64,000 nt of DNA from the NCBI RefSeq assembly GCF_000820505.1, contig NZ_JWJD01000001.1:255094-319093 (forward strand), in the 5' to 3' direction. Numbering within the stretch: position 1 is the stretch's first letter; every line of letters begins with the position of its first letter. Source of the DNA: Geoalkalibacter ferrihydriticus DSM 17813 (GTDB taxonomy: Bacteria > Desulfobacterota > Desulfuromonadia > Desulfuromonadales > Geoalkalibacteraceae). This document shows, piece by piece, positions 3,603-64,000 of the stretch. Made by a program: the position numbers and the translations under genes. The notes beneath the pieces were generated by a model. The model worked only from the letters and a program-made list of their open reading frames with translations, did no database searches and was not told the origin of the DNA.

Positions 3603-3677
3603 AACCGGCCCCGAATCCCATGATTGCCGGGAACGCTTTTTCTGTGCAGATTTGCCGTGCATCAGCCAAGGGACGCA

Positions 3678-4445
3678 ATGGCACGTTTAATCTCCCCTCT
3701 TATCAGCTTATTGCTTGCAGCGCTTCTGTGGAGCTGTGCGCCCCATAAGGGTATCTATCACACTGTTGAGCCGGGACAGACTCTTTACCGCATCAGCCGT
3801 AGCTATGGCGTGGATGAAAAAAACCTGGCGCGTCTCAACGGCATCGGCGATCCAACCCAACTGCGCGCCGGGCAGCGCATCTTTATCCCCGGCGCCACCC
3901 AGGAAAAAAGGGTTGGCACTGCGGTGACCACTGCGCAGAGGCCGGCCCCACCGGCTCGACCCTCAGCGTCTGTTTCTGCTCCCAGGCCCCCACCTGCACC
4001 CCCAACAGCCAAACCGCCTCCGACCCGGCAGACTCCGCCTGTGTCTCGCCCGCCCGCGGCCTCCACGGTGGGCAAGGGGCATTTTGCCTGGCCGTTGAAG
4101 GGCGAACTCCTGAAAAAATTCGGACAGCAAAGCGGTGGCACCAATCGAGGCATCGAAATAGCCGGTGGCAAGGGCAGTCCCGTGCACTCCGCAGCTTCCG
4201 GCCGGGTCATTTACAGTGGGGATGGCATTCGCGGTTATGGCAACTTGATCATTGTTGAGCATGACGACAATTTCTTCACGGTTTATGGTTTCAATGAACG
4301 AAATCTGGTTCAGGATGGAACCTTTGTCGGGCGCGGCGAGCATATCGCCGCCGTCGGCACACCGCCCGGGGGAGGTGCTTCGCGTCTTTATTTCGAGGTG
4401 CGTCGTGGCAAGGAGACGGTTGATCCCCTTTTTTACTTGCCATAG
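3678..4445 (+). CDS. nlpD: NlpD-like lipoprotein: LysM plus degenerate M23 domain
   Basis: A 255-residue envelope protein. A hydrophobic signal ends in the lipobox LLWSC (Cys20). A LysM domain follows (YHTVEPGQTLYRISRSYGV), then a Pro/Ala/Thr-rich linker and a C-terminal LytM/M23 fold. The usual zinc ligands are absent: the HxxxD position reads NRGIEI and the HxH position reads LYFEV. It should therefore act as a non-catalytic activator of a cell-wall amidase, as E. coli NlpD does. It lies directly before rpoS, the classic arrangement. The ATG at 3678 has AAGGGA upstream. Confidence 0.9.
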   Translation: MARLISPLISLLLAALLWSCAPHKGIYHTVEPGQTLYRISRSYGVDEKNLARLNGIGDPTQLRAGQRIFIPGATQEKRVGTAVTTAQRPAPPARPSASVSAPRPPPAPPTAKPPPTRQTPPVSRPPAASTVGKGHFAWPLKGELLKKFGQQSGGTNRGIEIAGGKGSPVHSAASGRVIYSGDGIRGYGNLIIVEHDDNFFTVYGFNERNLVQDGTFVGRGEHIAAVGTPPGGGASRLYFEVRRGKETVDPLFYLP

Positions 4446-4513: not shown

Positions 4514-5497
4514 ATGAACGACGAGCTGAGCGAACTCGAAGAAGTTGAACTCGAAGAGGAAGAGAGCGACGCGATGGAAGAAGGGCGCAATGACGACGAA
4601 GAAGAGGTCGAGGAAGAAAGCGAGGAAGTTGAGGCCAAAAGCGATTTCAGCGACCACTCCGACGACGCAATCAAGCTCTATCTGAAAGAAATTCAGAAAA
4701 CCAAACTATTGACCGCGGAAGAAGAACGAGAGCTCGCGCGCCGCATTGCCAAGGGCGAAATGGCGGCGCGCGACCGTATGATCGAGTCCAACCTACGCCT
4801 GGTGGTTAAAATTGCCAAGCGCTATATGAATCGTGGTCTTCCCTTTCTCGATCTGATCGAAGAAGGCAATATGGGATTGATCAAAGCGGTGGAGCGCTTC
4901 AAGCTGAGTAAGGAATGCCGCTTCTCCACTTATGCCACCTGGTGGATCAGGCAGTCCATCGAGCGTGCATTGGTCAATCAGAGCCGCACCATACGGCTTC
5001 CCGTGCACGTTTCCGACGATATCAACAAACTCATCAAAATCAGCCGCGAGCTGCAGCAGAAACTCAATCGCGAACCACAGGTCAAAGAGGTTGCCGAAGC
5101 CATGGGCGTCGAGCCGGCCTACGTGCGACGACTCATGGTGCTGGTCAAAAAGACTTATTCCATCGAGCATCCCATGGGTGAGAACAGCGATTACAGCCTC
5201 ATGGACACGATTGAGGACTCTTCGGCCATCGACCCTTCAGGACTGGTTGAGGATCTTGAAAAATTCACACGCGTTCAGGAATGGCTGGCGACCCTGAATG
5301 AAAGCGAGCGCGAAATTCTCAGCCTGCGTTTTGGGCTTGAGGACCGCGAACCGCAAACTCTTGATACCATAGGTCGAAAATTCGGCGTTACCCGTGAACG
5401 CATTCGTCAGATTGAAGCCAAGAGCCTCGAAAAGCTGCGCAAAATCATGGAAGAGGGTGAAGCGAGCGCCAAGGCCAACAGGGAAGAACATAGCTGA
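4514..5497 (+). CDS. rpoS: RNA polymerase sigma factor RpoS
   Basis: A 327-residue sigma-70-family factor. It opens with an unusually acidic tail (residues about 1-45, runs of E and D). Region 1.2 is [20 protein letters not shown], region 2 covers [20 protein letters not shown] and [20 protein letters not shown], and region 4 carries the [23 protein letters not shown]. Size, acidic N-terminus and position after surE-pcm-nlpD identify it as RpoS, the general stress and stationary-phase sigma, rather than the housekeeping factor. AAAGGA lies 8 bases upstream of the ATG. Confidence 0.94.
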
Positions 5498-6298: not shown

Positions 6299-7375
6299 TC
6301 ACCGTATTTTAGCGGTCAACCTGTTGACAAGGCTGCAAAGGGTCGCAGAGTTTTTGAGGCCATCGACGAAGCGCTGTGGAATGCGGGAGAACCCTGCCTG
6401 GGCGCCGACGAGGGCGCCTGTGAGGATAGCGCGGGCTTGATTCTGGCCGCCACCGTTGACGGCGTGGAGAATGGCCAACTCAAAATCCTGCGGGTAACGT
6501 GCGGCAAGGTAATAAGCTGCGGGCAGTTGGTGGTAGATGGCGCAGGGCATGCCGTACACGATGGAAACTTTCCAGGCCGGTTCTATGCGGATATCTGAAT
6601 CCTCGACGGCTGCGGCCATGTAAGATGGCGTCAGCAGGGCGTCGGGAGAAGCGAAACGACCGGCGCGGGGCGGATCAGGATCACCGGGTCGAGGTGGCTC
6701 GAGATTGTCACCGGTGACTGCGTGAAAGGGCAATTCGCCGGATTTGACCAAGTCCATAAGCTTCGCCGAGATTTGGTTATCCAGGGCGTACCCCTGGACC
6801 AGCAGGCCGAGCACCGCACCATAGGCAACGGTCATTGAGACCACGGTTTCATCGGTTTGGGTGAGAACCGTGTTGCCGGCCACCTTCTGGGCAAGTTGTT
6901 TGGGGTGGAGAGCATAACGAATCGCGATGGCAAGAGTGCGCTCTATGGCTTCGGTAGTGTCGGCATGCCCGCCTGTCTGACCCCAGGGCCGTTTCTTTTG
7001 TACGCGCCGCCGCCAGGCTTCACGGATGGACTGACTGGTGTAACCGCCCGGTCCACTGACCGGGGTGCCGTCGAGAAGGGGAAAGAGTTCTTCGTCCATG
7101 CGGCGGCAAAAATCGGCCTCATCATAATGTCCGCATTCAGCCAACGAGGCAAGCATAAGGGTGAGGATAAACCCGGCTTGAGAGAGTTGTCCTGCTTTGA
7201 GGCCGGCATGATAGCGTCCGGGTTTAGGGTCGGTGTAGTCGCTGATCCATTCGCCGTAGTCGCGGCGCAGTTCCTCCAAGTCGTAATACCAATGGGGACC
7301 CAGGGCCAGGGCATCACCGATCAAGGCGCCCATGAGGGCACCTTTGGCGCGGTCGCGAATGGCTGTGGTGGTCAT
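6299..7375 (-). CDS. ADP-ribosylglycohydrolase superfamily protein, altered metal site
   Basis: A 358-residue protein of the ADP-ribosylglycohydrolase (DraG/ARH) fold. The start GALMGALIGDALALGPHWYY fits the family's opening GxxxGDALG motif. The features that bind the two magnesium ions in active members differ: where a TDDT motif is expected near residues 65-70 it reads LSQAG, and the C-terminal GGDxDT motif is replaced by NGGGQNQARAILTGALVGAQ. Hydrolysis of ADP-ribose bonds may therefore be lost, or another ligand bound. GGAGGAG lies 7 bases before the ATG. It is monocistronic, flanked by tRNA-Arg and divergent yacG. Confidence 0.82.
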   Translation of the reverse strand: MTTTAIRDRAKGALMGALIGDALALGPHWYYDLEELRRDYGEWISDYTDPKPGRYHAGLKAGQLSQAGFILTLMLASLAECGHYDEADFCRRMDEELFPLLDGTPVSGPGGYTSQSIREAWRRRVQKKRPWGQTGGHADTTEAIERTLAIAIRYALHPKQLAQKVAGNTVLTQTDETVVSMTVAYGAVLGLLVQGYALDNQISAKLMDLVKSGELPFHAVTGDNLEPPRPGDPDPPRAGRFASPDALLTPSYMAAAVEDSDIRIEPAWKVSIVYGMPCAIYHQLPAAYYLAARYPQDFELAILHAVNGGGQNQARAILTGALVGAQAGFSRIPQRFVDGLKNSATLCSLVNRLTAKIR

Positions 7376-53614: not shown

Positions 53615-54193
53615 TTAGGCCTGGCGTCCCAGGGAAAACGCCTTCAGGTTTTCGTCGAGAAATCTTGCGGGCACCCGGTTTTTCATGGCCTGAACCCAGG
53701 CGTCTTCGGCGATATCCATCATCGTCGATAGCGCGCCGAGCAACACGGTGTTGACGGTACGCATATTGCCGGCCTGCACGGCCAGATCCATGCTGTTGAC
53801 AATGCGACTGCGGGGGAAGGCCGCGCGGATTTTGCCCGGAACATCCTCGGGGTAGCTTTCCTTGCCCAGGGCCACGCCCGGGGGCACAATCTGCAGGTCG
53901 CTGACCACCACCTGTGCATCCTTCTTGAGCAGCGGCAGATAGCGGTAAGATTCGAGAAGCTCAAAACCGAAGAGGATGTCCGCCTCGCCTTCGGGAATAA
54001 TGGGTGAATAAACCTTTTCACCGTAACGCACATGGGAGACGACACTGCCGCCGCGTTGAGCCATGCCGTGCACCTCGGCTTTTTTGACGTCATAGCCGCC
54101 GAGCATGAGCACTTCGGAGAGAATTTCGCTGGCGAGCAGGATACCTTGCCCACCGACACCGACCAGCAGGATGTTTTGTACTTTATTCTTCAT
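53615..54193 (-). CDS. iorB: indolepyruvate ferredoxin oxidoreductase beta subunit
   Basis: A 192-residue gamma-type domain of 2-oxoacid:ferredoxin oxidoreductase. NILLVGVGGQGILLASEILS is the opening and EVHGMAQRGGSVVSHVRYGE the conserved central motif. With IorA it oxidatively decarboxylates arylpyruvates to aryl-acetyl-CoA and reduces ferredoxin. The ATG at 54193 overlaps the iorA end by 11 bases, so the two are coupled; a longer upstream frame is an overlap artefact. Confidence 0.94.
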   Translation of the reverse strand: MKNKVQNILLVGVGGQGILLASEILSEVLMLGGYDVKKAEVHGMAQRGGSVVSHVRYGEKVYSPIIPEGEADILFGFELLESYRYLPLLKKDAQVVVSDLQIVPPGVALGKESYPEDVPGKIRAAFPRSRIVNSMDLAVQAGNMRTVNTVLLGALSTMMDIAEDAWVQAMKNRVPARFLDENLKAFSLGRQA

Positions 54194-55952
54194 GGCAGAC
54201 TCCGAAGGCACCGAATTTACAGACTTGCATACAAACCTCACATCCCACGCAGACCAACTTGTCAATCTGCGCCTGCCCCTTGGTTCCGGCAGACGGATTC
54301 CACTTTATGGCGGGACAGCCAAGCTTCAGACAGGCCTTGCAAGCGGTGCATTTCTCGGCATCGACAAAAAGCGGCGGCTTTCTTTGAATGAGGTCGCGCT
54401 TGTGCAACATGCAGGCGCGGCGCGTGATGATGACGGAGACTTCGGGACGCTCCATCTCGCGCTTGATCAGGTCGCGGGTCTCATCAAGACCGTAGGGATC
54501 GATGGTATAGACGTGCTTGACACCGACTGAGCGGCACAGAGCTTCGAGATCCACCTGATAGGAGGGATCGCCCTTGAGGCTATAACCGGTGCCGGGATGG
54601 TCCTGACGGCCGGTCATGCCCGTGGTGCTGTTGTCGAGGATGATCACGGTGGCGGTGGAGCCGTTGTAGACCATGTCGATCAGGCCGTTGATGCCGGTGT
54701 GCAGAAAAGTCGAATCGCCAATAACAGCGACCACTTTCTGCTTGTCCTCCGCCGGGAGAACCTTGCTGATTCCCGTCGCGTTGCCGATGCTGGCCCCCAT
54801 GCATACGCAGGTGTCCATAGCCGAGAGCGGCGGCATGAAACCCAGGGTGTAGCAGCCGATATCGCCGGTGACATACGCCTTGAGGCGATTGAGTTGATAA
54901 AACACACCGCGATGGGGGCAGCCCGGACACATGTTGGGCGGACGCTGCGGCAGGGTTTCCGTGGGCGTGAATCCCTGGGGAATTTCCTTCTTGTGCAGGC
55001 CGGCAGCGACCCGTCCGGGGGTCAGTTCCCCGCAGATGGGCAACAGATCCTTGCCATGCACTTCAATACCCATGGCACGCACCTGCTCTTCAATGAAGGG
55101 GTCGAGCTCTTCAATGACGTAGAGCGTCTTGCAGCGCGCAGCGAACTCGCGAATCAGGTTTTTCGGCAGCGGATGAACCAGACCGAGTTTGAGCATCTGA
55201 GCCTCAGGCAGCACTTCCTTGGCGTACTGATAGGCCACGCCGGATGTAATGACGCCAACATCGCTTTTGCCTTCCTCGATGCGGTTGAAGGGTTGGGTGC
55301 AGGACCATTCGGCCATTTTCTCCAGGCGCTCTTCCACGAAATAGTGGCGCTTGCGGGCGTTGCCGGGCAGCATGACCAGCTTGGCTGGATCACGCACCAG
55401 ACTCGGCTCGGGCAGCCCTTCCACCGGTGCCTCGGGATGAACAATAGACTTGGAGTGTGAAATACGGGTGGTCGAGCGCACCATGATGGGCGTATCGAAC
55501 TTCTCGCTCGCCTCGAAGGCCAGGCGGGTAAAGGCGCGTGCCTCCTCGCTGTCCGCGGGCTCAAACATGGGTACCTTGGCGAAGCGTGCGTAATGACGGC
55601 TGTCCTGCTCGTTCTGTGATGAGTGCAGCTCCGGGTCATCGGCGACGATTAGCACCAGGCCGCCGCGCACCCCGGTATATGACAGCGTGAACAAGGGATC
55701 GGCCGCCACGTTGACGCCGACATGTTTCATGGTGCAAAGGGCGCGCGCGCCGCCGAAACTGGCGCCAATGGCAACTTCAAGGGACACTTTTTCGTTGGGG
55801 GCCCAGGAGGAATCAATACTGGGATAAGAACGCGCGATGTTTTCGAGAATTTCCGTACTGGGCGTACCGGGATAGGCCGAAGCCACCTTGACGCCGGCCT
55901 CAAAGGCCCCGCGGGCAAAGGCTTCGTTGCCCGAAAGAATGGTCTTGTCCAT
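54183..55952 (-). CDS. iorA: indolepyruvate ferredoxin oxidoreductase alpha subunit
   Basis: A 589-residue subunit. AFEAGVKVASAYPGTPSTEI is the pyrimidine-domain start, and MGASIGNATGISKV with VIGDSTFLHTGINGLIDMVY form the thiamine-diphosphate site. Two [4Fe-4S] motifs end it: CTACKACLKLGCPAI and CVGCEVCMQVCKFGAFG. It drives aromatic amino-acid breakdown, or reverse synthesis, with ferredoxin. AAGGA lies 7 bases before the ATG at 55952. A near-consensus promoter is upstream. Confidence 0.95.
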   Translation of the reverse strand: MDKTILSGNEAFARGAFEAGVKVASAYPGTPSTEILENIARSYPSIDSSWAPNEKVSLEVAIGASFGGARALCTMKHVGVNVAADPLFTLSYTGVRGGLVLIVADDPELHSSQNEQDSRHYARFAKVPMFEPADSEEARAFTRLAFEASEKFDTPIMVRSTTRISHSKSIVHPEAPVEGLPEPSLVRDPAKLVMLPGNARKRHYFVEERLEKMAEWSCTQPFNRIEEGKSDVGVITSGVAYQYAKEVLPEAQMLKLGLVHPLPKNLIREFAARCKTLYVIEELDPFIEEQVRAMGIEVHGKDLLPICGELTPGRVAAGLHKKEIPQGFTPTETLPQRPPNMCPGCPHRGVFYQLNRLKAYVTGDIGCYTLGFMPPLSAMDTCVCMGASIGNATGISKVLPAEDKQKVVAVIGDSTFLHTGINGLIDMVYNGSTATVIILDNSTTGMTGRQDHPGTGYSLKGDPSYQVDLEALCRSVGVKHVYTIDPYGLDETRDLIKREMERPEVSVIITRRACMLHKRDLIQRKPPLFVDAEKCTACKACLKLGCPAIKWNPSAGTKGQAQIDKLVCVGCEVCMQVCKFGAFGVCHEE

Positions 55953-56012
55953 GGATGTCCTTTCCAGAGTGCCGTTCAAAGATTGAATTTGGAGAGTCTA
56001 AGCAGAACCGGG

Positions 56013-56041
56013 AATATAGATCAAGCGCGGGGAGATGTCAA
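56013..56041 (-). promoter_or_regulatory. promoter of the iorAB-paaK operon
   Basis: On the minus strand TTGACA (56041-56036) and TATATT (56018-56013) are 17 bases apart, 61 bases upstream of the iorA start. A strong sigma-70 match. Confidence 0.65.
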
Positions 56042-56065
56042 TTTCATTCAGGATTATACGGGGTT

Positions 56066-56090
56066 GGCGCCCGCCTTTGAGGCGGGCGCC
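56066..56090 (-). terminator. GC-rich hairpin after the Na/Pi cotransporter gene
   Basis: GGCGCCCGCC (56066-56075) pairs perfectly with GGCGGGCGCC (56081-56090) around a 5-base loop, 8 bases after the end of the minus-strand transporter. No T run follows, so it may act as an RNA-stabilising or weak terminator structure. Confidence 0.55.
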
Positions 56091-56097
56091 CAGGGAT

Positions 56098-57798
56098 TTA
56101 TTTGCGCCCAACCAGTGCCTTGGTCACATTGAAGGTATGGTCGCCGATCTTTTCGAAACTGTGCAGGATATCGATGAAGATCAGTCCGGGCAGCACGGCG
56201 CACTCGCCAGTATTGAGTCGAGAAATATGCCCATTGCGATAGACTTCCTCAGCCTGATTGATGCTCTTCTCGAAAAATTCGGCCTTTTCCATGACCGAAG
56301 TGTCTTCCCGCTCTACGGCATCGATAATGAAAGCCAGGAAATCCCGCGCTTTTTGCGCGATGTCGGCAACTTCCTGATCGGCCGTGCCGGAGAAGATTAT
56401 TTTCTGTTCCTGTTTGCGCTGCCCCAGCAGCCAGATTTTCTCACAGTAATCGCCAATGCGCTCCAGGTCGTTAACCATGTGCATGAGCGAAGCGATTTCC
56501 TTGTGCATCTGCGAGGAGACTGATTGCTGAGAGAGCGCCACCAGAAAATTGGTCACCTCCTTTTGCAGGAGATCGACGGTTTCCTCTTTTTTCTCAAGAG
56601 TTTCAAGCCTTTTTTTGTCATTGTCGTGCAAATACGCCATGGTTTCTTCAACCATTTCACGACAAATAAGCCCCATACGACGGGTTTCGGCACGGGCCTG
56701 TCCCAATGCAATCGGCGGCGAATTGAGTACGCGTGTATCGATGTGCTTGAGATGAAAATCCTGGACGGCATCCTCGCCGCGAATCATTATTGTCGTCAAT
56801 TTTGCCAGAATCCCGACCAAAGGCAGGAAAATCAGCGTATTGATGATATTGAAGAGAGTATGCGTATTGGCGATGTGGCGGGCTATGTAAGGCTTCTCTC
56901 CCTCCTTGAGGCCGGCACCGAAAGCATCAGCCTGAGCCTGGGTCTGCAAAACAAAATCCGCGTCGCCGGGAGTTATGGCCGAAATAATCTGGAGGAAAAA
57001 CGGAAACAACAACAGCATGTAAGTCACCCCGATGGCGTTAAACAGAAAGTGCGCCAAAGCAGTGCGTCGTGCGGCCAGATTGGTTCCCATCGCCGCCAGA
57101 TTGGCGGTGACGGTGGTGCCGATATTTTCGCCCAGAATCAGAGCAACGCTTGCCTCGAAGGTCAACAGGCCGCTGCTGGCCAGGGCCAGGGTTATGGCGA
57201 TGATCGCGGTGCTGCTCTGCACGATTACGGTCATGATCGCGCCAATGAGCACCCCCAGCAAGAGGTTGTCACCGATCAGCAGAAAAAAAGTCCGAAACTC
57301 CTCACTGGCGCGAAGGGGATCAAAGGCCTCGCGCATGATGGTGAGACCGAAAAACAACAAGCCAAAACCGAGAATCACCTCGCCAAAATAACCCCATTCA
57401 CGTTTTTTCCGGCAGAAAAGCTTGAGAAAAACACCGATTCCGATGGCCGGCAAGGCATATTTGGTGATTTTGAAGGCGATAATCTGAGCCGTGACCGTGG
57501 TGCCGATATTAGCGCCCAATACCACACCGATGGCCTGCATCAGATTCATCAGCCCAGCATTGACAAAACCCACCACCATGACGGTGGTGGCGCTCGAAGA
57601 CTGAATGATCGTGGTTACCCCGATTCCAACCAATGTCCCCATGAAGCGGTTGTTGGTGAGTGCCGCAAGAATTTGCCGCATGCGGTCGCCGGCGATTTTC
57701 TGCAAGCCCTCCGACATGATTTTCATGCCGTAAAGAAACAGGCCAAGGCCACCGAGAAGCATGAAGATCAGGGTTTCATCAAGCAGGACAGATAACAT
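56098..57798 (-). CDS. Na+/Pi-cotransporter II family protein with PhoU-like domain
   Basis: A 566-residue membrane protein. Two Na_Pi_cotrans repeats each hold the QSSSAT-type motif (GVTTIIQSSSATTVMVVGFV and IMTVIVQSSTAIIAITLALA), and a cytoplasmic helical PhoU-like domain follows (about residues 350-560). It probably takes up phosphate with sodium, or exports it; PhoU-fused members may also control this. It is monocistronic. AGAGGGAA lies 5 bases before the ATG. Confidence 0.9.
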   Translation of the reverse strand: MLSVLLDETLIFMLLGGLGLFLYGMKIMSEGLQKIAGDRMRQILAALTNNRFMGTLVGIGVTTIIQSSSATTVMVVGFVNAGLMNLMQAIGVVLGANIGTTVTAQIIAFKITKYALPAIGIGVFLKLFCRKKREWGYFGEVILGFGLLFFGLTIMREAFDPLRASEEFRTFFLLIGDNLLLGVLIGAIMTVIVQSSTAIIAITLALASSGLLTFEASVALILGENIGTTVTANLAAMGTNLAARRTALAHFLFNAIGVTYMLLLFPFFLQIISAITPGDADFVLQTQAQADAFGAGLKEGEKPYIARHIANTHTLFNIINTLIFLPLVGILAKLTTIMIRGEDAVQDFHLKHIDTRVLNSPPIALGQARAETRRMGLICREMVEETMAYLHDNDKKRLETLEKKEETVDLLQKEVTNFLVALSQQSVSSQMHKEIASLMHMVNDLERIGDYCEKIWLLGQRKQEQKIIFSGTADQEVADIAQKARDFLAFIIDAVEREDTSVMEKAEFFEKSINQAEEVYRNGHISRLNTGECAVLPGLIFIDILHSFEKIGDHTFNVTKALVGRK

Positions 57799-57898
57799 GG
57801 AGTTCCCTCTTCCCCGGTCGCCCGGGAAGAATGAAGTTTAGGCGGGAATGAACGGGGCACGCAGTCCTTGAAAAAACGGGCTGAATATAGCGGATAGA

Positions 57899-58540
57899 TC
57901 AGTTTTTTTCAACGGAAAAGGGGAAGCGAAAATCGGCGTCTTCAGATAGAGGTGTGCCGGGCAGGAAATAACGTAGTTCAAAAGACTTCATGCGGGTCAA
58001 ATCGGCAACGAAATAAACCAACCCGGAAACACGGCCGCCGGGTAGAACAACGCCTTCAGGCAGAGCCTGCGTGTAGAGATCCTGGGGAAATCGCTGGGGA
58101 AAATAAGGCAGGGAGCTGTCAAAATCAGCGGCGCGCGAGACGCGGACGGCATCCTGAAGATAATAAAAGCCCACATAGGGATAAGGAATCAGATAGAAGG
58201 AATCACGCGCAATCATTTCGTGGACTTTTTTCGGCGTAACCGGACGCATCTGATTGCCGCCTCCATCGACCAGGTAAAAACCGTCGAGGGAAAGAGGTAC
58301 ACCCTGATTGGATGAATTATCGAAGCCGATCCAAAAGGAAGTTAGATTCTCTACCATCTGGTAAGGACGCACTTCCAGATCCTGCACCCTGACGGTAAGA
58401 CTCATCTGTTCCAGTTGCTGGGTCACCGATCCGTCAGAAGGATCAACCTGGGAACCGGCCAGGGGTTGTGGCACCACTTTGACGCCACAGCCGCCGAGAA
58501 ACACAAAGGAACACAAGATTATCAGAATTACTCGATTCAT
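57899..58540 (-). CDS. lipoprotein, function unknown
   Basis: A 213-residue protein with a lipoprotein signal (ILIILCSFVFLGGCGVK, Cys18). The mature part has no motif I recognise; LEVRPYQMVENLTSFWIGFD and VSGLVYFVADLTRMKSFELR look like beta-sandwich strands. It is the last of four closely spaced genes, starting 2 bases after the cyclic-nucleotide-binding gene, with GGAGGT before its ATG. Attachment to a membrane is inferred. Confidence 0.75.
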   Translation of the reverse strand: MNRVILIILCSFVFLGGCGVKVVPQPLAGSQVDPSDGSVTQQLEQMSLTVRVQDLEVRPYQMVENLTSFWIGFDNSSNQGVPLSLDGFYLVDGGGNQMRPVTPKKVHEMIARDSFYLIPYPYVGFYYLQDAVRVSRAADFDSSLPYFPQRFPQDLYTQALPEGVVLPGGRVSGLVYFVADLTRMKSFELRYFLPGTPLSEDADFRFPFSVEKN

Positions 58541-58542
58541 TT

Positions 58543-59028
58543 TTAGTGACCTCCGGCATGGTGAGGCGATTTGCCCAGTGCAAAACGCAGCATCTGGTGA
58601 TAATCCTCTTCAGCGGCTCGCACTCGCTCGCTGAACACCCGCAGGATGTTGCGCATCAGCTTCATTCCCAGGCGGGGATGGCGATCGCAAAGACGGTTGA
58701 ATTCTTTTCGGGTCAGATTGAGCAGACAGGCGGCTTCGACAATACGCGCCGTCACCGGACGGCGGCCCTGGATCACAACAGCCAGCTCGCCGAAAACCTC
58801 CTCCGGACCCAGAATGATCAGCGTTCGCTCCTCCCCTTCGGCGGTTGCCTTCGAGATTTGCACGGCACCGCTTTGGATGAGATAGAGGCTTTCCCCGGGC
58901 ATGTTTTCGATAAAGACGGTGGTTCCTTCAACCATGGTCTTTTCATTGAAGGAATCAGCCAGCAGGACCAGCTCCCCCTCGTCGAGGCCCTTGAGCAAAG
59001 CACAGTTTTCAAGACCAGCAAAAGCCAT
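58543..59028 (-). CDS. stand-alone cyclic-nucleotide-binding domain protein
   Basis: A 161-residue protein comprising a CAP-family cyclic-nucleotide-binding domain and a short helical tail. EGTTVFIENMPGESLYLIQS begins the jelly roll, and EEVFGELAVVIQGRRPVTAR is the phosphate-binding cassette with its Glu and Arg. No DNA-binding HTH follows, so it is not a CRP-type regulator. It lies in an envelope operon after a small OmpA-like gene (14-base gap). AGGGGA lies before its ATG. Confidence 0.82.
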   Translation of the reverse strand: MAFAGLENCALLKGLDEGELVLLADSFNEKTMVEGTTVFIENMPGESLYLIQSGAVQISKATAEGEERTLIILGPEEVFGELAVVIQGRRPVTARIVEAACLLNLTRKEFNRLCDRHPRLGMKLMRNILRVFSERVRAAEEDYHQMLRFALGKSPHHAGGH

Positions 59029-59042
59029 TGGATCCCCTGCGG

Positions 59043-59516
59043 TTATCGCGTGATGGCCTCTTGAATATCGACCGTATCAATATCGAGAAGATTATCATAT
59101 AAAACGATTTCCACACGGTCCGGTGCAAGGCTCCCGGCAGTTCCGATCGCCACGGCATGGCCGGTTAGCGTCGGGGAGAATTTCGGCAAGCGCTGCCTGA
59201 TCGCTTCGCCGACCGCATTGGCCCGAATCATGGATAATGTCACCCTGTCACCGGCGTTGCCGCAAGAGGTCGAAAAGCCTTCAATGCGCACCAGCCTGCG
59301 AGGCTCTTCAAGACTTCTCAGTTGCGGCACCAGGGCCGAGATTGCCCGCCGTCCCTCCTCGGTAAGTTGATGTGAATCTTGATCAAAATTGACCGTGCCC
59401 AACACCCGGCGGTCGGCGAAATAATTTTCCGTTTCCGCCGCCTCGGGTGGCGGTGATTGCGCCACTGCCGCAAAGCAGAGAAACGCTATCCAGAAGCCGA
59501 CCAGAAGAGACCTCAT
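59043..59516 (-). CDS. small exported OmpA-like protein, altered binding site
   Basis: A 157-residue protein with a signal peptide (LLVGFWIAFLCFAAVAQS) and one OmpA C-terminal-like domain: GTVNFDQDSHQLTEEGRRAI and SMIRANAVGEAIRQRL. In typical members an aspartate of a TD(x)xG motif and an arginine hold diaminopimelate of peptidoglycan; here the segment reads GFSTSCGNAGDRVTLSMIRA, keeping Arg but not the Asp. Its ATG overlaps the stop of the large OmpA gene (ATGA). Confidence 0.75.
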   Translation of the reverse strand: MRSLLVGFWIAFLCFAAVAQSPPPEAAETENYFADRRVLGTVNFDQDSHQLTEEGRRAISALVPQLRSLEEPRRLVRIEGFSTSCGNAGDRVTLSMIRANAVGEAIRQRLPKFSPTLTGHAVAIGTAGSLAPDRVEIVLYDNLLDIDTVDIQEAITR

Positions 59517-61009
59517 GGGTTTGCAGCCTTCGGCAGCAGCACCAGAATTTCGACCCTCCGATTGGTACTGCGTCCTTCAGCTGTCTGATTGTCGGCCAGG
59601 GGTTGGGTATCCCCATGGCCTTTAACGAAAATGCGGGTCGGATCCAATCCTTCATGCGTAGCGATGTGGGAACCCATGGCGATAGCCCGTCGCACCGACA
59701 GCCTGGTGTTGTATTGCGCGGAACCGACGTTGTCGGTGTGGCCGTCGATGCGCAGCAAAAACCAGCGCCCTTCTCTGCGAAGGTCGGCGATGATTTCCGA
59801 AACAGCTTTTTTGCCCTCGTCGGACAGGCTGTACTGATCAAAGTCAAAGCTGAACTCAGGCAGCCTGAACTTACGATAGACATAAGTACGGATGGGCTCC
59901 TCGTCCACCTGTGCATCAGGTTCAGAAACTGCTCCCGCGGGTCTTTGCGGTGCGGTCGTCATGGGGGCCAGAGGACTGACAGCGCGGGTCCGTACCGAGG
60001 AAGCCGCAGTCTCCGGCAGACGTTCCGCAGGCGTTAGAATCACATCCGCAGCCGACGTGGGCGGCGCCACCGGCATTTCATGCAACTCCACCCCGGTCAG
60101 GGCACGGGGTCGGGCCTGGGTTGCCAGCAACGGCGAGAGCGGCCGGATGCCGGGCACCGGTTCCGCCTCCACTCCCGGCGCTGCGGCGACAGGATCGGGC
60201 GCCTGGATCAAGCGCGGCACCTGTACGAAGTAGGTGCCGACGCCCTGAGTGGTCGACATCCCGAGAAGAACGCGCCAATCCGGGGTGGCATCCGTCAGTC
60301 CCACGCCGACCCCGAGGTTGAAGGTCAGGTGCGGCGATGCGAAGTATTGCACCCCGATCATGGCTTCACCCTCCTCGCCCCGGCCCTTTTCCTTCTCTGT
60401 GGAGTAACCCACTTCGGCAATCAGGCGGGCGCGTGAACTGGGATAGAATTCAATGCCGCCGCCCATCACTACCTGGTTGCCATAGTCTGCGTCTACCGGA
60501 CTTTCGTTGCCCTGATAGCCAACATTGGCGTGGACTCCAAAACGATCCGGGCGATAACTTGCGATCATGCGGCTCAGGTAGCTGTTGATTCCATCGCGTC
60601 CGGGGTCGTCGGACACGGAGCGACGCCCCTGAATATCGAAGGCCAGCTTAAAGGGTGAGGAGCGCTTACCGAGGACGCGGGCCTTAAAGCCAAGACTGAC
60701 ATCGCCGCGCCCGCTGCTCAGGTCGTCATCGTTGAATAGCAGGTTGGGATAGGAGCCGTAGACCTCCAGAAAGGAACCCAGGCCCAGGGTAAGGGATGTC
60801 GGCATAATCGTTGCGCTGCCGGCATCGCCGTCCGAGTGATTAAGCCATACGCCGAAACTGAGGTTGCCGGCGTCCAGAGTGTCGGCACTTGGTTGGGACA
60901 ACAGGCCGGTGTCGCCATATTGCGTGGGGACTGCGTAACTAGACCCGGGAAAGCTCAACCACAGGGCGAGCGAGCCGATGATGAGCAACTTAACGGCGGT
61001 GGTTCTCAT
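59513..61009 (-). CDS. OmpA-family outer membrane protein, beta-barrel plus peptidoglycan-binding domain
   Basis: A 498-residue protein. A signal peptide (LLIIGSLALWLSFPGSSYA) is followed by about 230 residues of alternating strands like an outer-membrane barrel (YGDTGLLSQPSADTLDAGNL). Then comes a Pro/Ala/Thr-rich linker (about 260-375) and a C-terminal OmpA domain (GHTDNVGSAQYNTRLSVRRA) with intact TDxxG and Arg. It should tie the outer membrane to peptidoglycan. It heads the four-gene operon. AGAGG precedes the ATG. Confidence 0.88.
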   Translation of the reverse strand: MRTTAVKLLIIGSLALWLSFPGSSYAVPTQYGDTGLLSQPSADTLDAGNLSFGVWLNHSDGDAGSATIMPTSLTLGLGSFLEVYGSYPNLLFNDDDLSSGRGDVSLGFKARVLGKRSSPFKLAFDIQGRRSVSDDPGRDGINSYLSRMIASYRPDRFGVHANVGYQGNESPVDADYGNQVVMGGGIEFYPSSRARLIAEVGYSTEKEKGRGEEGEAMIGVQYFASPHLTFNLGVGVGLTDATPDWRVLLGMSTTQGVGTYFVQVPRLIQAPDPVAAAPGVEAEPVPGIRPLSPLLATQARPRALTGVELHEMPVAPPTSAADVILTPAERLPETAASSVRTRAVSPLAPMTTAPQRPAGAVSEPDAQVDEEPIRTYVYRKFRLPEFSFDFDQYSLSDEGKKAVSEIIADLRREGRWFLLRIDGHTDNVGSAQYNTRLSVRRAIAMGSHIATHEGLDPTRIFVKGHGDTQPLADNQTAEGRSTNRRVEILVLLPKAANP

Positions 61010-61078
61010 GCAGCCTCTTTCCCCGGCCCGGGCTTTACGCGGGAATGGAATAATAGGATTGCCTAAAAAATTAGAGCA

Positions 61079-61107
61079 ATCATATTATTTTTTATCCATA
61101 AAATCAA
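61079..61107 (-). promoter_or_regulatory. promoter of the OmpA/cNMP operon
   Basis: On the minus strand TTGATT (61107-61102) and TATGAT (61084-61079) are 17 bases apart. An inverted repeat GATTGC (61057-61062) / GCAATC (61076-61081) touches the -10 element and could be an operator. Confidence 0.55.
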
Positions 61108-61640
61108 CCCCTCTTTCTCTCCTGGTCCCGAAGCAAAGAAAAATACTGCTGCATGTAGCCCACATAGTTTTCTGCCGAAGTCTTCAAATGCGCCCGTTCC
61201 TCATCGCTCAAGGCCCTTTTAACCCGCGCGGGACTGCCGAGAACCAGGTGCCCTGGAGGTATTTGGGTGCCGGGCGCGATCAGTGAACCGGCGGCTACCA
61301 GGCAATCGTCTCCGATCACCGCACCATCGAGGACAATCGCTCCGATGCCGATCAGGCAGCGATCGCCGATAGTGCAACCGTGCAGGGTCACGTTGTGTCC
61401 CACCGTCACATCGTTTCCGAGAAAAGTCGGATGGGTCTTGTGGCTGACATGAACCACGCTGCCGTCCTGAATGTTGGTGCGCTCACCAATGCGGATATGG
61501 TTGACATCGCCACGGACAACGACATTGAACCACACGCTTGATTGATGCCCGATGCGAACATCCCCAATGATTCGGGCGCTGTCGTCAATAAAAACTTCGC
61601 CCTCAAGATGGGGAGTGGATTCAAAAAAAGGGATAAGCAT
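61104..61640 (-). CDS. gamma-carbonic-anhydrase-family protein
   Basis: A 178-residue left-handed beta-helix protein. Its hexapeptide repeats include SSVWFNVVVRGDVNHIRIGE (the RGDxxxIxIG signature) and SVVHVSHKTHPTFLGNDVTV, which with VGHNVTLHGC supplies the three zinc histidines. Such proteins may be carbonic anhydrases or lack activity. The ATG at 61640 was chosen for AGGAGAG just upstream, and because an upstream frame overlaps a terminator. Confidence 0.9.
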   Translation of the reverse strand: MLIPFFESTPHLEGEVFIDDSARIIGDVRIGHQSSVWFNVVVRGDVNHIRIGERTNIQDGSVVHVSHKTHPTFLGNDVTVGHNVTLHGCTIGDRCLIGIGAIVLDGAVIGDDCLVAAGSLIAPGTQIPPGHLVLGSPARVKRALSDEERAHLKTSAENYVGYMQQYFSLLRDQERKRG

Positions 61641-61689
61641 GAGTCTCTCCTGTGCGTTAGATAAAGGGGCAGCCTTCGCAAAAACAGAT

Positions 61690-61722
61690 AAAGCCCGGAA
61701 AAGAAAAGCTTTTCCGGGCTTT
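61690..61722 (-). terminator. intrinsic terminator between the HU gene and the carbonic anhydrase gene
   Basis: A perfect 14-base inverted repeat: AAAGCCCGGAAAAG (61690-61703) and CTTTTCCGGGCTTT (61709-61722) with a 5-base loop. On the minus strand it is followed by ATCTGTTTT, fitting termination of the HU-gene transcript. Confidence 0.8.
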
Positions 61723-61822
61723 ATCGAGAGTTGCGCCCACAACCGCCGAACCTTTCAAGCCACGGCGGACTTTTTCCCAAGGCAAGTAGATTTTTGTGTT
61801 GTTTCCAGCAAGGGCCGCGCGC

Positions 61823-62104
61823 TTAATGGCCTTTGTTGACCCGCTCGCGCAGCTCTTTACCAACCTTGAAGAACGGCAGCTTTTTGGGCTTTACGTGAAT
61901 TACCTCACCCGTTTTCGGGTTACGCCCCATGTAGTCTTTGTAATCCTTGACCACAAAACTACCGAAACCGCGGATTTCAATGCGGTCACTGTTAATCAGA
62001 GCATCGGTCATCGAATCAAAGATCAGATTGACAATTTCCTCTGATTTCTTGTAGGTCAGATTCTTCTTGCTAGCCAGCTTTTCCACCAGTTCAGACTTGT
62101 TCAT
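61823..62104 (-). CDS. HU/IHF-beta-like DNA-binding protein
   Basis: A 93-residue HU-family protein: MNKSELVEKLASKKNLTYKK, then DRIEIRGFGSFVVKDYKDYM and the minor-groove arm GRNPKTGEVIHVKPKK. EIRGFGSFxV is the pattern of the IHF-beta group, so it may pair with IhfA of 859-1137, but HU-like homodimers cannot be excluded. It has a consensus promoter and a terminator of its own. GGAGGC lies 5 bases before the ATG. Confidence 0.9.
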   Translation of the reverse strand: MNKSELVEKLASKKNLTYKKSEEIVNLIFDSMTDALINSDRIEIRGFGSFVVKDYKDYMGRNPKTGEVIHVKPKKLPFFKVGKELRERVNKGH

Positions 62105-62173
62105 GGTGCCTCCGGATAAAAATCGCCTTGGCGCGAACCAAAAACAACTCTAACGCCTTAAAACCTTTATAAA

Positions 62174-62201
62174 AATATACCTCCTGAAAAAAAGGTGTCA
62201 A
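62174..62201 (-). promoter_or_regulatory. promoter of the HU/IHF-beta gene
   Basis: On the minus strand TTGACA (62201-62196) and TATATT (62179-62174) are 16 bases apart, 70 bases upstream of the start codon. Confidence 0.65.
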
Positions 62202-62216
62202 CAGGGCGAAAAAATT

Positions 62217-63488
62217 TCATGATTTTTCCGGAGTCGAAACCAGCTTTTCAGCCGCCGCCCTAAGCTCGGAGGGCAGGTCGGGGTGGTTAATGATCTTCTC
62301 CACCAGGGCGAGTCCATCTTTTTTCCACCCGCGGGCAAGGTAAGTCTCACCAATTCTGAGCTGCCACCGGGGGTTGGCGGGTTCCTGTCGGGCCGCCTGG
62401 TTGAAAGCATCCAGAGCTTTGTCGAGATGACGCCCGTGGCGCAGCCAGAATTCGGCAAGATAAGCCGAAGCGCCCCCTTTGCATCCGCCGCCTCCAAGAG
62501 TGGAAAGCAACTGTTCAGCCTCAGCGAGTTCGCCGCGCTTTTCCAGCAAGGAGGAAGTCAGCAGCACGATCTCCGGATCGGGACGTCCACCTCCCTGCAG
62601 CGCCTGCCGCGCAAATGCCAGGGCTTGATCCAAATCCCCCTGACGCGTGCAAATAATCGCCAGACGGGACAGGCAGAAAGCTGGTGCCGTCCCGGACTCA
62701 AGGGCTCGCAAAGCATGGGTGCGGGCCTGCTCAAGCTGATTGTCGGATAGTTCCAGTGTGACCAGCGCTTCAAGAGCCTGAACATGGGCGGGGTTAAGCT
62801 CCAGGGCGCGACCCAGGTCGCGGCGCGCGGCAGCGGCGTCGCCGGAACGCGCCGCAAGGCAGCCGCGTTCGAAAAAAAACAGGTCGTCCTGCTCTGCTTC
62901 GGGAATTTGGGAATAAAGGTCCAAAGCCTCCCGGTCACGTCCTTCATGGGTGGCGAGAAAGGCCTGACGGAAAGGCTCCGACACAGCGAGGTAGCGCTGT
63001 GCCAACTCGGGTGGGTAAGAGGCAAGAATCAGCTCGAAGCGACTTGATTCATCGAGAACCTGCGGATCGGCTGCGGCTGCAGAAACCGCACCGCTTCCAG
63101 CGCAACCGCCGGAGGCGCAGTGGGCGGCGGTTGCGCTCGCGGTCGCGACAGGCGCCTCCCCGGCCGTGGAAAAAGTGCTCAGGGCGGTGGCTATCTTTTG
63201 TCGCAAAGGCGCATTGCGCACTTGGGTCAGAGCCAACTCCAGGTGTTCGCGGGCCTTGAGATTTTCGCCGGCGCGCAGGCAGCCTTCACCCTCTTCAAGG
63301 TTAAGCTGCGCCAAATGGTCGCCCGCGCGACCGAGAAGTGTTTCGAATTCATGCCGATCCGCCTCTGGCAGGGCTTCGCGATCGATCCCTTCACCAATCT
63401 GCAGGACATCCGCCCAGCGGTTGTCCTGCAGGGCGCGACGCATTTGAACGAGGGGGTTTTTGCGGCCGAACAATCGGGAGAAAACCAT
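62217..63488 (-). CDS. tetratricopeptide-repeat protein with cysteine-containing linkers
   Basis: A 423-residue, mostly helical protein without a signal peptide. TPR units are seen from about residue 170 (AFLATHEGRDREALDLYSQI, GDAAAARRDLGRALELNPAH and others). Two glycine-rich cysteine segments stand out: AHCASGGCAGSG near residue 125 and GGGGCKGGAS near 340, which could bind metal. Family function is not known; TPRs mean protein contacts. The ribosome-binding site is weak. It lies between the XRE-cupin gene and the HU gene. Confidence 0.75.
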   Translation of the reverse strand: MVFSRLFGRKNPLVQMRRALQDNRWADVLQIGEGIDREALPEADRHEFETLLGRAGDHLAQLNLEEGEGCLRAGENLKAREHLELALTQVRNAPLRQKIATALSTFSTAGEAPVATASATAAHCASGGCAGSGAVSAAAADPQVLDESSRFELILASYPPELAQRYLAVSEPFRQAFLATHEGRDREALDLYSQIPEAEQDDLFFFERGCLAARSGDAAAARRDLGRALELNPAHVQALEALVTLELSDNQLEQARTHALRALESGTAPAFCLSRLAIICTRQGDLDQALAFARQALQGGGRPDPEIVLLTSSLLEKRGELAEAEQLLSTLGGGGCKGGASAYLAEFWLRHGRHLDKALDAFNQAARQEPANPRWQLRIGETYLARGWKKDGLALVEKIINHPDLPSELRAAAEKLVSTPEKS

Positions 63489-63508
63489 AGCGGAAACTCA
63501 TTTTCGGA

Positions 63509-64000
63509 TTAAATGATGGTAAATGGGGAAAGAGTCCAGAGCACCTTGGCATCCTGATCGCTGACGTTGTCCCAGCGGTGGGGCAGATGCGACTTGAAGG
63601 ACAGGCTGTCGCCGGGTTGAAGCACGTACTCCTCGTCGGCGATGGTGACCCGCAACCTTCCCTCAACCAGATAGATCAATTCATCGCCGGGGTGATACAT
63701 GTGCTTCACGCCACTGGTTCCCCCGGGAGGCACGGTGCAGAAGAAGGACATGAACTGCGGATCGCGCAGTCCCGATGTGAAGGACTCCGTGTGCATATTA
63801 TGTTCGTCGTCATACACAGTCGTATCGCGCTTGCCGGGAGTGGTGAACACAACCTCGTGGGTCGTGCTGACCTCCTCGACGAAATAGTTGATGCTCTTAT
63901 CGAACACCCCTGCCAACTTCATCAGAATTTCCACTGAAGGGATGGTCAGCCCACGCTCGACCCGACTGATCATATTGGAAGAAACGCCGGATTTCTCGGC
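63509..64000 (-). CDS. XRE-family regulator with cupin domain, 5' end outside window
   Basis: The frame stays open to the window edge, so the N-terminus is missing. What is seen: the end of a helix-turn-helix (AEKSGVSSNMISRVERGLTI), a short linker, then a cupin barrel: GVKHMYHPGDELIYLVEGRL and LQPGDSLSFKSHLPHRWDNV with His/Glu metal-type ligands. Such HTH-cupin regulators sense small molecules, often in amino-acid or polyamine metabolism. An internal ATG at 63973 is not the true start. Confidence 0.88.
   Translation of the reverse strand, partial: AEKSGVSSNMISRVERGLTIPSVEILMKLAGVFDKSINYFVEEVSTTHEVVFTTPGKRDTTVYDDEHNMHTESFTSGLRDPQFMSFFCTVPPGGTSGVKHMYHPGDELIYLVEGRLRVTIADEEYVLQPGDSLSFKSHLPHRWDNVSDQDAKVLWTLSPFTII

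Follow-up and report, generated by a model that had tools for sequence, protein, structure and literature searches.

Bacterial proteins that carry a cyclic-nucleotide-binding domain are known mostly as DNA-binding regulators or parts of channels. In outer-membrane proteins of the OmpA type, the N-terminal barrel has eight strands, and an Asp and an Arg of the OmpA domain make the contacts with the cell wall. Both kinds of protein are encoded together in a four-gene unit of Geoalkalibacter ferrihydriticus DSM 17813 (Desulfobacterota; Desulfuromonadia; Desulfuromonadales), which we analysed in a window of 64,000 nucleotides (contig NZ_JWJD01000001.1, positions 255,094 to 319,093 of the forward strand; coordinates below are those of the window). 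The unit comprises genes for two OmpA-type proteins (OmpA1 and OmpA2), a stand-alone cyclic-nucleotide-binding protein (CNB) and a putative lipoprotein (Lipo). A comparison across the class showed that the envelope trio of OmpA1, OmpA2 and Lipo and the CNB protein are kept or lost independently. The four genes, in the order of their reading, are:

59513 to 61009, minus strand: OmpA1, 498 amino acids; Pfam matches PF00691 (66.4 bits) and PF13557 (25.1 bits).
59043 to 59516, minus strand: OmpA2, 157 amino acids; Pfam match PF00691 (31.0 bits).
58543 to 59028, minus strand: CNB, stand-alone cyclic-nucleotide-binding protein, 161 amino acids; Pfam match PF00027 (70.0 bits).
57899 to 58540, minus strand: Lipo, putative lipoprotein, 213 amino acids, with Cys18; no Pfam family above cut-off.

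With CRP/FNR regulators and the regulatory subunits of protein kinase A, CNB has in common the domain, the Glu/Arg cassette and a conserved stretch after the domain, but it is only 161 amino acids long and no output domain was found in it. OmpA1 shares with OprF and other OmpA-type proteins a peptidoglycan-binding domain at its C-terminus (35% identical to the one in OprF), in which Asp and Arg are retained. It differs from them in its modelled barrel of 12–13 strands, which is nearest to FapF and COG4313, and in having a partner, OmpA2, without the Asp. The FapF and COG4313 (Phenol_MetA_deg) channels share the barrel fold and the PF13557 match with OmpA1, but OmpA1 differs from these by its C-terminal wall-binding domain. 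Lipo may resemble Bacillus YjhA, YcdA and YxkC in its predicted beta-sandwich; this fold match is weak, and Lipo differs by a conserved middle region of its own and by belonging to no Pfam family. No description of the locus was found in the open literature, judged by the titles and the beginnings of the abstracts of the top-ranked results.

The four open reading frames lie on the minus strand at 57899–61009 and are separated by −4, 14 and 2 bases, and their positions confirm what the original prediction, made from the sequence alone, had said of strand and spacing. The component types that it had named were also borne out, with PF00691 in OmpA1 and OmpA2, PF00027 alone in CNB and an invariant lipoprotein Cys in Lipo. 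None of the NCBIfam matches listed for the four proteins (for OmpA1, 25 of 39) reached the curated cut-off.

Among 58 relatives, the window genome included, a CNB ortholog (E-value of 4.9e-34 or better; next match 4.5e-19) was present in 38 and Lipo in 28. The class sample consisted of 277 genomes, in which three weaker CNB matches (G594, G619 and G600; E-values 5.6e-32 to 5.1e-31) were excluded. Lipo was found in 91 of these genomes and CNB in 89. Both were present in 48, and in 47 of them the two genes were neighbours in the same orientation, CNB preceding Lipo; in the remaining genome they were split over two contig ends. CNB without Lipo occurred in 41 genomes, all of the order Desulfuromonadales to which the window genome belongs. 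We rejected the possibility that Lipo had moved elsewhere, as no match at an E-value of 0.001 was obtained across these 41 genomes. Conversely, Lipo without a CNB ortholog occurred in 43 genomes, 40 of them outside the order. In two of the 43 (G004 and G487) the loci stop at contig ends and are uninformative; in G026, whose locus (L078) reads OmpA2-Lipo with no CNB between, the missing CNB is not due to a contig end.

We then read the loci of all 48 genomes with both genes, all 41 with CNB only and 35 of the 43 with Lipo only (32/40 outside the order, 3/3 inside). These loci were gathered by way of CNB or Lipo matches, so that any locus with OmpA1 only would have escaped the collection, and in other families the presence of Lipo follows from the selection itself. 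Across the class, the frame of the locus is HU-(gCA)-OmpA1-OmpA2-(CNB)-Lipo-NaPi-(Ppx/GppA)-IorA, with parts absent in many genomes. A locus was counted as complete when HU plus NaPi or Ppx was seen, so complete loci tell little about NaPi. The 71 complete loci of the order comprised 29 with all four genes, 6 without OmpA2 only, 35 with CNB and without OmpA1, OmpA2 and Lipo, and 1 (L054) with a truncated OmpA1 and no Lipo. The 29 include L051, where CNB (6539–7012) is hidden under a long overlapping open reading frame. The gene order described in the original prediction is thus not a rare one among relatives (29 of 71 loci, or 35 if the absence of OmpA2 is allowed), and its recurrence in many genomes rules out a chance line-up of the four genes.

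The envelope genes behaved as a set. OmpA1 and Lipo agreed, being both present or both absent, in 70 of the 71 loci despite the position of CNB between them. On a quick tree of NaPi proteins, their joint absence (32 of 90 rows) required 11 changes, of which well-supported branches forced 4 or more; the CNB and NaPi trees carry long-branch warnings. In three other families of the class, OmpA1 and Lipo occurred without CNB in 31/31 complete loci, which had been picked by Lipo, and OmpA2 was present in 27; one genome from these families (G573) reads OmpA1-OmpA2-CNB-Lipo. Decay of the trio was visible in two genomes of the class. In G499 (locus L207, tallied as CNB-only despite its broken Lipo), Lipo lies downstream of an intact CNB in two pieces in different frames (decaying genes at 3633–4159 and 4702–4893). 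The broken Lipo was detected with both query relatives, and a weak OmpA2 remnant upstream of CNB (64 residues, 30% identity, E-value 3.5e-5) with one of the two. In G056 (L054, 2353–3117), OmpA1 has no barrel and Lipo is absent, and CNB is intact.

We conclude that the trio and CNB are separable. Since they are retained independently, they are not components of a single machine but neighbours that perhaps work in one pathway, and their separate behaviour argues against an envelope machine in which CNB would be essential. The original prediction had proposed that a cytoplasmic nucleotide signal may be coupled to attachment at the envelope. In an obligate form this is not supported, given the 35 loci with CNB and no OmpA1 or Lipo, the 31 with trio genes and no CNB, and the cyclase searches described below. 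CNB may nevertheless report to the trio where both exist; the CNB-Lipo pairs of distant families (see below) are the best evidence for this. Overall, the interpretation first given to this locus is partly supported.

Pfam recognized PF00027 (70.0 bits, cut-off 27.5) as the sole domain in the 161 amino acids of CNB. No DNA-binding or other output domain was found by Pfam, nor the C-terminal helix-turn-helix that defines CRP/FNR regulators, and the NCBIfam CRP and FNR models matched the cyclic-nucleotide-binding part far under their cut-offs. The suggestion that the cyclic-nucleotide-binding protein controls the other three genes therefore finds no support in the sequence, as no DNA-binding domain was found in CNB. 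We also considered that CNB might be a fragment of a CRP-type regulator. This was ruled out, because the orthologs are alike in size (152–164 amino acids in 37 aligned sequences) and present in 38 of the 58 relatives. In the protein from the window, the phosphate-binding cassette contains E81 and R90; sequences of the order have the Glu in 36/37 and the Arg in 37/37 cases, and N127 and R137 are invariant in the conserved stretch after the domain. Directly after the key Arg, this genus has Pro, and most relatives have Ser, Thr or Ala. A class III adenylate cyclase domain (PF00211) was present in 24 of the 58 relatives, with a higher share among those bearing CNB (20/38) than among those without a CNB ortholog (4/20). 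None was detected in the window genome, its genus (0/4) or its family (0/6), and class I (PF01295) was found in 0/58 relatives, the window genome included, in a cyclase search that covered classes I and III. Cyclic AMP is hence not a safe guess for the ligand in this genome.

The AlphaFold2 model of OmpA1 (25-row alignment; mean predicted local distance difference test score (pLDDT) 73.9, predicted template modelling score 0.47) consists of an N-terminal helix, a beta-barrel, a low-confidence linker and a C-terminal OmpA-type domain. By its position, the helix is probably a signal peptide. The best Foldseek match was FapF (1.6e-10); the wall-binding domain of OprF (4.6e-8) and a COG4313 channel (8.7e-8) ranked lower; the Pfam match to PF13557 is weak (25.1 bits, cut-off 22). 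The Asp of the OmpA domain (Asp426) was present in 25/25 and the Arg in 24/25 aligned sequences. Of the description 'OmpA barrel/peptidoglycan-binding protein' in the original prediction, the second part is upheld by the PF00691 domain with its Asp and Arg, but the first is not, as the modelled barrel is FapF/COG4313-like and unlike the small OmpA barrel. Among the neighbouring genes, none for amyloid secretion was noticed. Longer OmpA1 orthologs, of 661–904 amino acids compared with about 490, were seen in four loci (L035, 2216–4912; L036, 5034–7040; L060, 4004–5989; L066, 2985–5699).

The match of OmpA2 to PF00691 is partial (31.0 bits, cut-off 27.2; model positions 2–64 of 98). The peptidoglycan-contacting Asp was found in 0/19 aligned sequences (18 other residues, 1 gap) and the Arg in 19/19. 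Judged from this alignment, OmpA2 is an OmpA-like protein in which a key wall-binding residue has been lost and the Arg kept. For Lipo, Cys18 was invariant in 26/26 aligned homologues and the N-terminal helix was present in the model, which together point to a lipoprotein. The AlphaFold2 model is a beta-sandwich (pLDDT 76.3) with weak segments at 56–62, 115–129 and 138–153. Foldseek returned YjhA (2.8e-4), YcdA (7.1e-4) and a YxkC-DacA model (2.1e-2), a weak fold match with a template modelling score of 0.41 on the query.

The remaining features around the unit are:

61079 to 61107, minus strand: promoter-like site ahead of the four genes, TTGATT-17-TATGAT, 9/12.
61104 to 61742, minus strand: gCA, hexapeptide-repeat protein, on the same strand upstream of OmpA1; we take it to be gamma-carbonic-anhydrase-like.
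57884 to 57912, minus strand: promoter-like site before NaPi, TTGAAA-17-TATATT, 10/12; overlaps the end of Lipo.
56098 to 57798, minus strand: NaPi, Na/Pi cotransporter with PhoU domains; PF02690 (241.1 bits) and PF01895 (82.5 bits).

The promoter proposed for the four-gene unit at 61107–61079 has a score that is not above chance, with 6 promoter-like sites found in 54000–63600 compared with 4.3±1.8 in shuffled sequences. An alignment of the site with those of three congeners showed an invariant TTGATTTT block and a mostly retained −10 region. The proposal thus gains from conservation in the three congeners searched, but not from the score alone, which is no better than in shuffles. A single transcript of the four genes is plausible. 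The site at 57912–57884 is near-identical across the window genome and three congeners, and transcription of NaPi would begin there separately. A known RNA element ahead of the unit was rejected, as 54000–64000 gave 0 Rfam matches that reached the gathering score. A 17-pair terminator-like hairpin (61725–61687) lies inside the listed gCA open reading frame, close to its start. Because the listed TTG lies ahead of this hairpin (region 61687–61742), gCA probably starts further downstream than listed.

NaPi is the next gene on the same strand, 100 bases downstream of Lipo, and belongs to the conserved locus, beyond the segment covered by the original prediction. It was present in 85 of 92 rows of the order (91 genomes, as G489 has two). 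Five of the seven other rows end at contig ends, and L035 and L188 are without NaPi. Where NaPi and IorA were both seen, Ppx/GppA lay between them in 46/55 rows of the order and 21/21 others, with a median NaPi-Ppx/GppA gap of 0 and 8, respectively.

Outside the class, the phylum sample (395 genomes, 378 of them outside) contained Lipo in 20 genomes, 9 of which were outside-class. Four of these nine (G088, G125, G068 and G142; families f35 and f54) have a CNB gene immediately before Lipo in the same orientation, in quite different surroundings. A CNB relative (E-value 1e-28 or better) was present in 9/9 outside-class Lipo genomes and in 46/378 outside-class genomes; the nine represent four families only and are not independent. 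In the four genomes of family f37, CNB was not beside Lipo, and in one of them (L181) a TPR protein recognized by Pfam precedes Lipo. In a genome of family f64 (L178, 3583–6259), a Lipo relative directly precedes a gene for PhoU_div and one for a phosphate transporter of the PHO4 type. The protein upstream of this Lipo relative matches Big_1 weakly, below cut-off.

In a tree of 64 CNB sequences, the Lipo-adjacent copies of f35, f54 and G573 grouped with Ppx/GppA-adjacent copies (support 98/93). This group and the copies of the order were split from those adjacent to nuo, trxB, comM or pilT (91/87; the tool's mark is 95/80). In G068 and G142, the Lipo-adjacent copies grouped apart from the trxB-linked ones that these genomes also carry. 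Judged from this tree, which is unrooted, with long branches and only moderate support for the second split, the pairing of CNB and Lipo may be old.

CNB relatives were also seen in other contexts. CNB lies between a nuoG-like gene and nuoH (complex I) in 10 of 21 loci viewed (L280, L283, L284, L285, L288, L291, L293, L294, L295 and L296); the neighbours were assigned by Pfam for L284 and named by eye for the others. These ten copies all fall to the same side of one branch (support 100/99), with the cassette Glu in 10/10 and the Arg in 9/10. An open literature search returned no paper that combines cyclic-nucleotide binding with nuoG and nuoH. In four loci (L278, L279, L281 and L287), CNB is directly beside a thioredoxin-reductase-like gene (Pfam: L278), as a tandem pair in three of the four. 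CNB relatives of family f37 are located between enoyl-CoA-hydratase-like and Ppx/GppA genes (L282, L289 and L292; Pfam: L289).

As a tentative explanation, possible rather than probable, we favour a co-transcribed envelope trio next to an independently kept cytosolic CNB sensor, perhaps concerned with phosphate handling. The four genes would form one transcription unit, placed in a locus that is old and conserved across the class, and this unit holds two separable parts. The first, which co-retention supports, would be the trio, with OmpA1 as a channel tied to the wall by its OmpA tail, OmpA2 and a beta-sandwich lipoprotein. The second would be the cytosolic CNB, retained alone after loss of the trio. 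By analogy with the CRP family, CNB may form a dimer via its C-terminal helix, and its intact cassette would bind a cyclic nucleotide or a similar ligand. Because no DNA-binding domain was found, it would act through protein contact. The likeliest targets would be encoded in the same locus: the PhoU-bearing NaPi or the Ppx/GppA phosphatase, which comes next in most relatives but not in the window. The locus as a whole would then serve phosphate or polyphosphate handling, with the trio as its outer-membrane side. We hold the phosphate part no more firmly, since gene neighbourhood is its sole basis. In its favour are the regular presence of NaPi and of Ppx/GppA, the PhoU_div and PHO4 genes after Lipo in f64, and the three CNB relatives beside Ppx/GppA. 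Several observations weigh against it. HU and IorA also recur regularly in the locus and have no evident phosphate link, so that constancy of the locus alone proves little; Ppx is absent between NaPi and IorA in 9/55 rows of the order (the window, its genus and five more); and four loci from other families retain Lipo and Ppx but no NaPi. Moreover, a separate promoter-like site precedes NaPi in this genus, the gap from CNB to NaPi is 62–682 bases where the trio is missing, CNB in distant families pairs with Lipo and not with NaPi, and the Lipo-PHO4 neighbourhood comes from one genome only.

One rival is plain co-transcription, in which a common promoter and a chromosomal address of long standing, but no pathway, link CNB to the trio. 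It accommodates the independent loss of trio and CNB, the presence of HU, gCA and IorA in the locus with no evident common role, and the many unrelated places in which CNB relatives occur (nuo, trxB, comM and pilT neighbourhoods), but a mere address leaves the CNB-Lipo pairs of distant families in other surroundings unexplained, and we consider it rather doubtful. Those same pairs in two distant families would follow if CNB were a dedicated sensor of the trio, chiefly of Lipo, by which a cytosolic nucleotide signal tunes attachment at the outer membrane and cell wall. Such a sensor would also fit the consistent pairing in all 48 class genomes holding both genes, the excess of CNB relatives in outside-class Lipo genomes, and the distinctness of the Lipo-adjacent CNB of G068 and G142 from their trxB-linked copies. 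Set against this are the 41 genomes with CNB and no Lipo and the 43 with Lipo and no CNB ortholog (G004 and G487 at contig ends), the decay of the trio beside a retained CNB, and the location of the products in different compartments, with no inner-membrane go-between encoded by the four-gene unit. We regard a dedicated sensor as unlikely.

A further alternative concerns the ligand, which may have been lost or changed, leaving CNB as a structural adaptor. The lack of detected class III cyclases in the window genome, genus and family and of class I in all 58 relatives agrees with this, as does the Pro after the key Arg in this genus. However, the near-invariant Glu and Arg of the cassette and the more frequent class III cyclases in CNB-bearing relatives, in a search limited to classes I and III, speak against an adaptor, which we regard as decidedly unlikely.

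A CNB without output domain is widely kept in one order while its companions come and go en bloc, which yields a short and testable list of targets. The envelope trio is interesting in itself as a conserved set of a wall-anchored channel and two helpers. A wider reading, which we consider quite unlikely at present, is that the stand-alone CNB family acts across the phylum as plug-in ligand sensors for non-regulatory machines (lipoprotein/phosphate genes, nuoG-nuoH, thioredoxin reductase and Ppx/GppA); if true, transport, redox and respiration would be tuned by a cyclic nucleotide through direct protein contact. If CNB acts on the phosphate transporter or phosphatase, or its relatives on complex I, this would be direct cyclic-nucleotide control of a membrane machine, and it would occur in bacteria many of which show no class III cyclase (18/38 CNB-bearing relatives).

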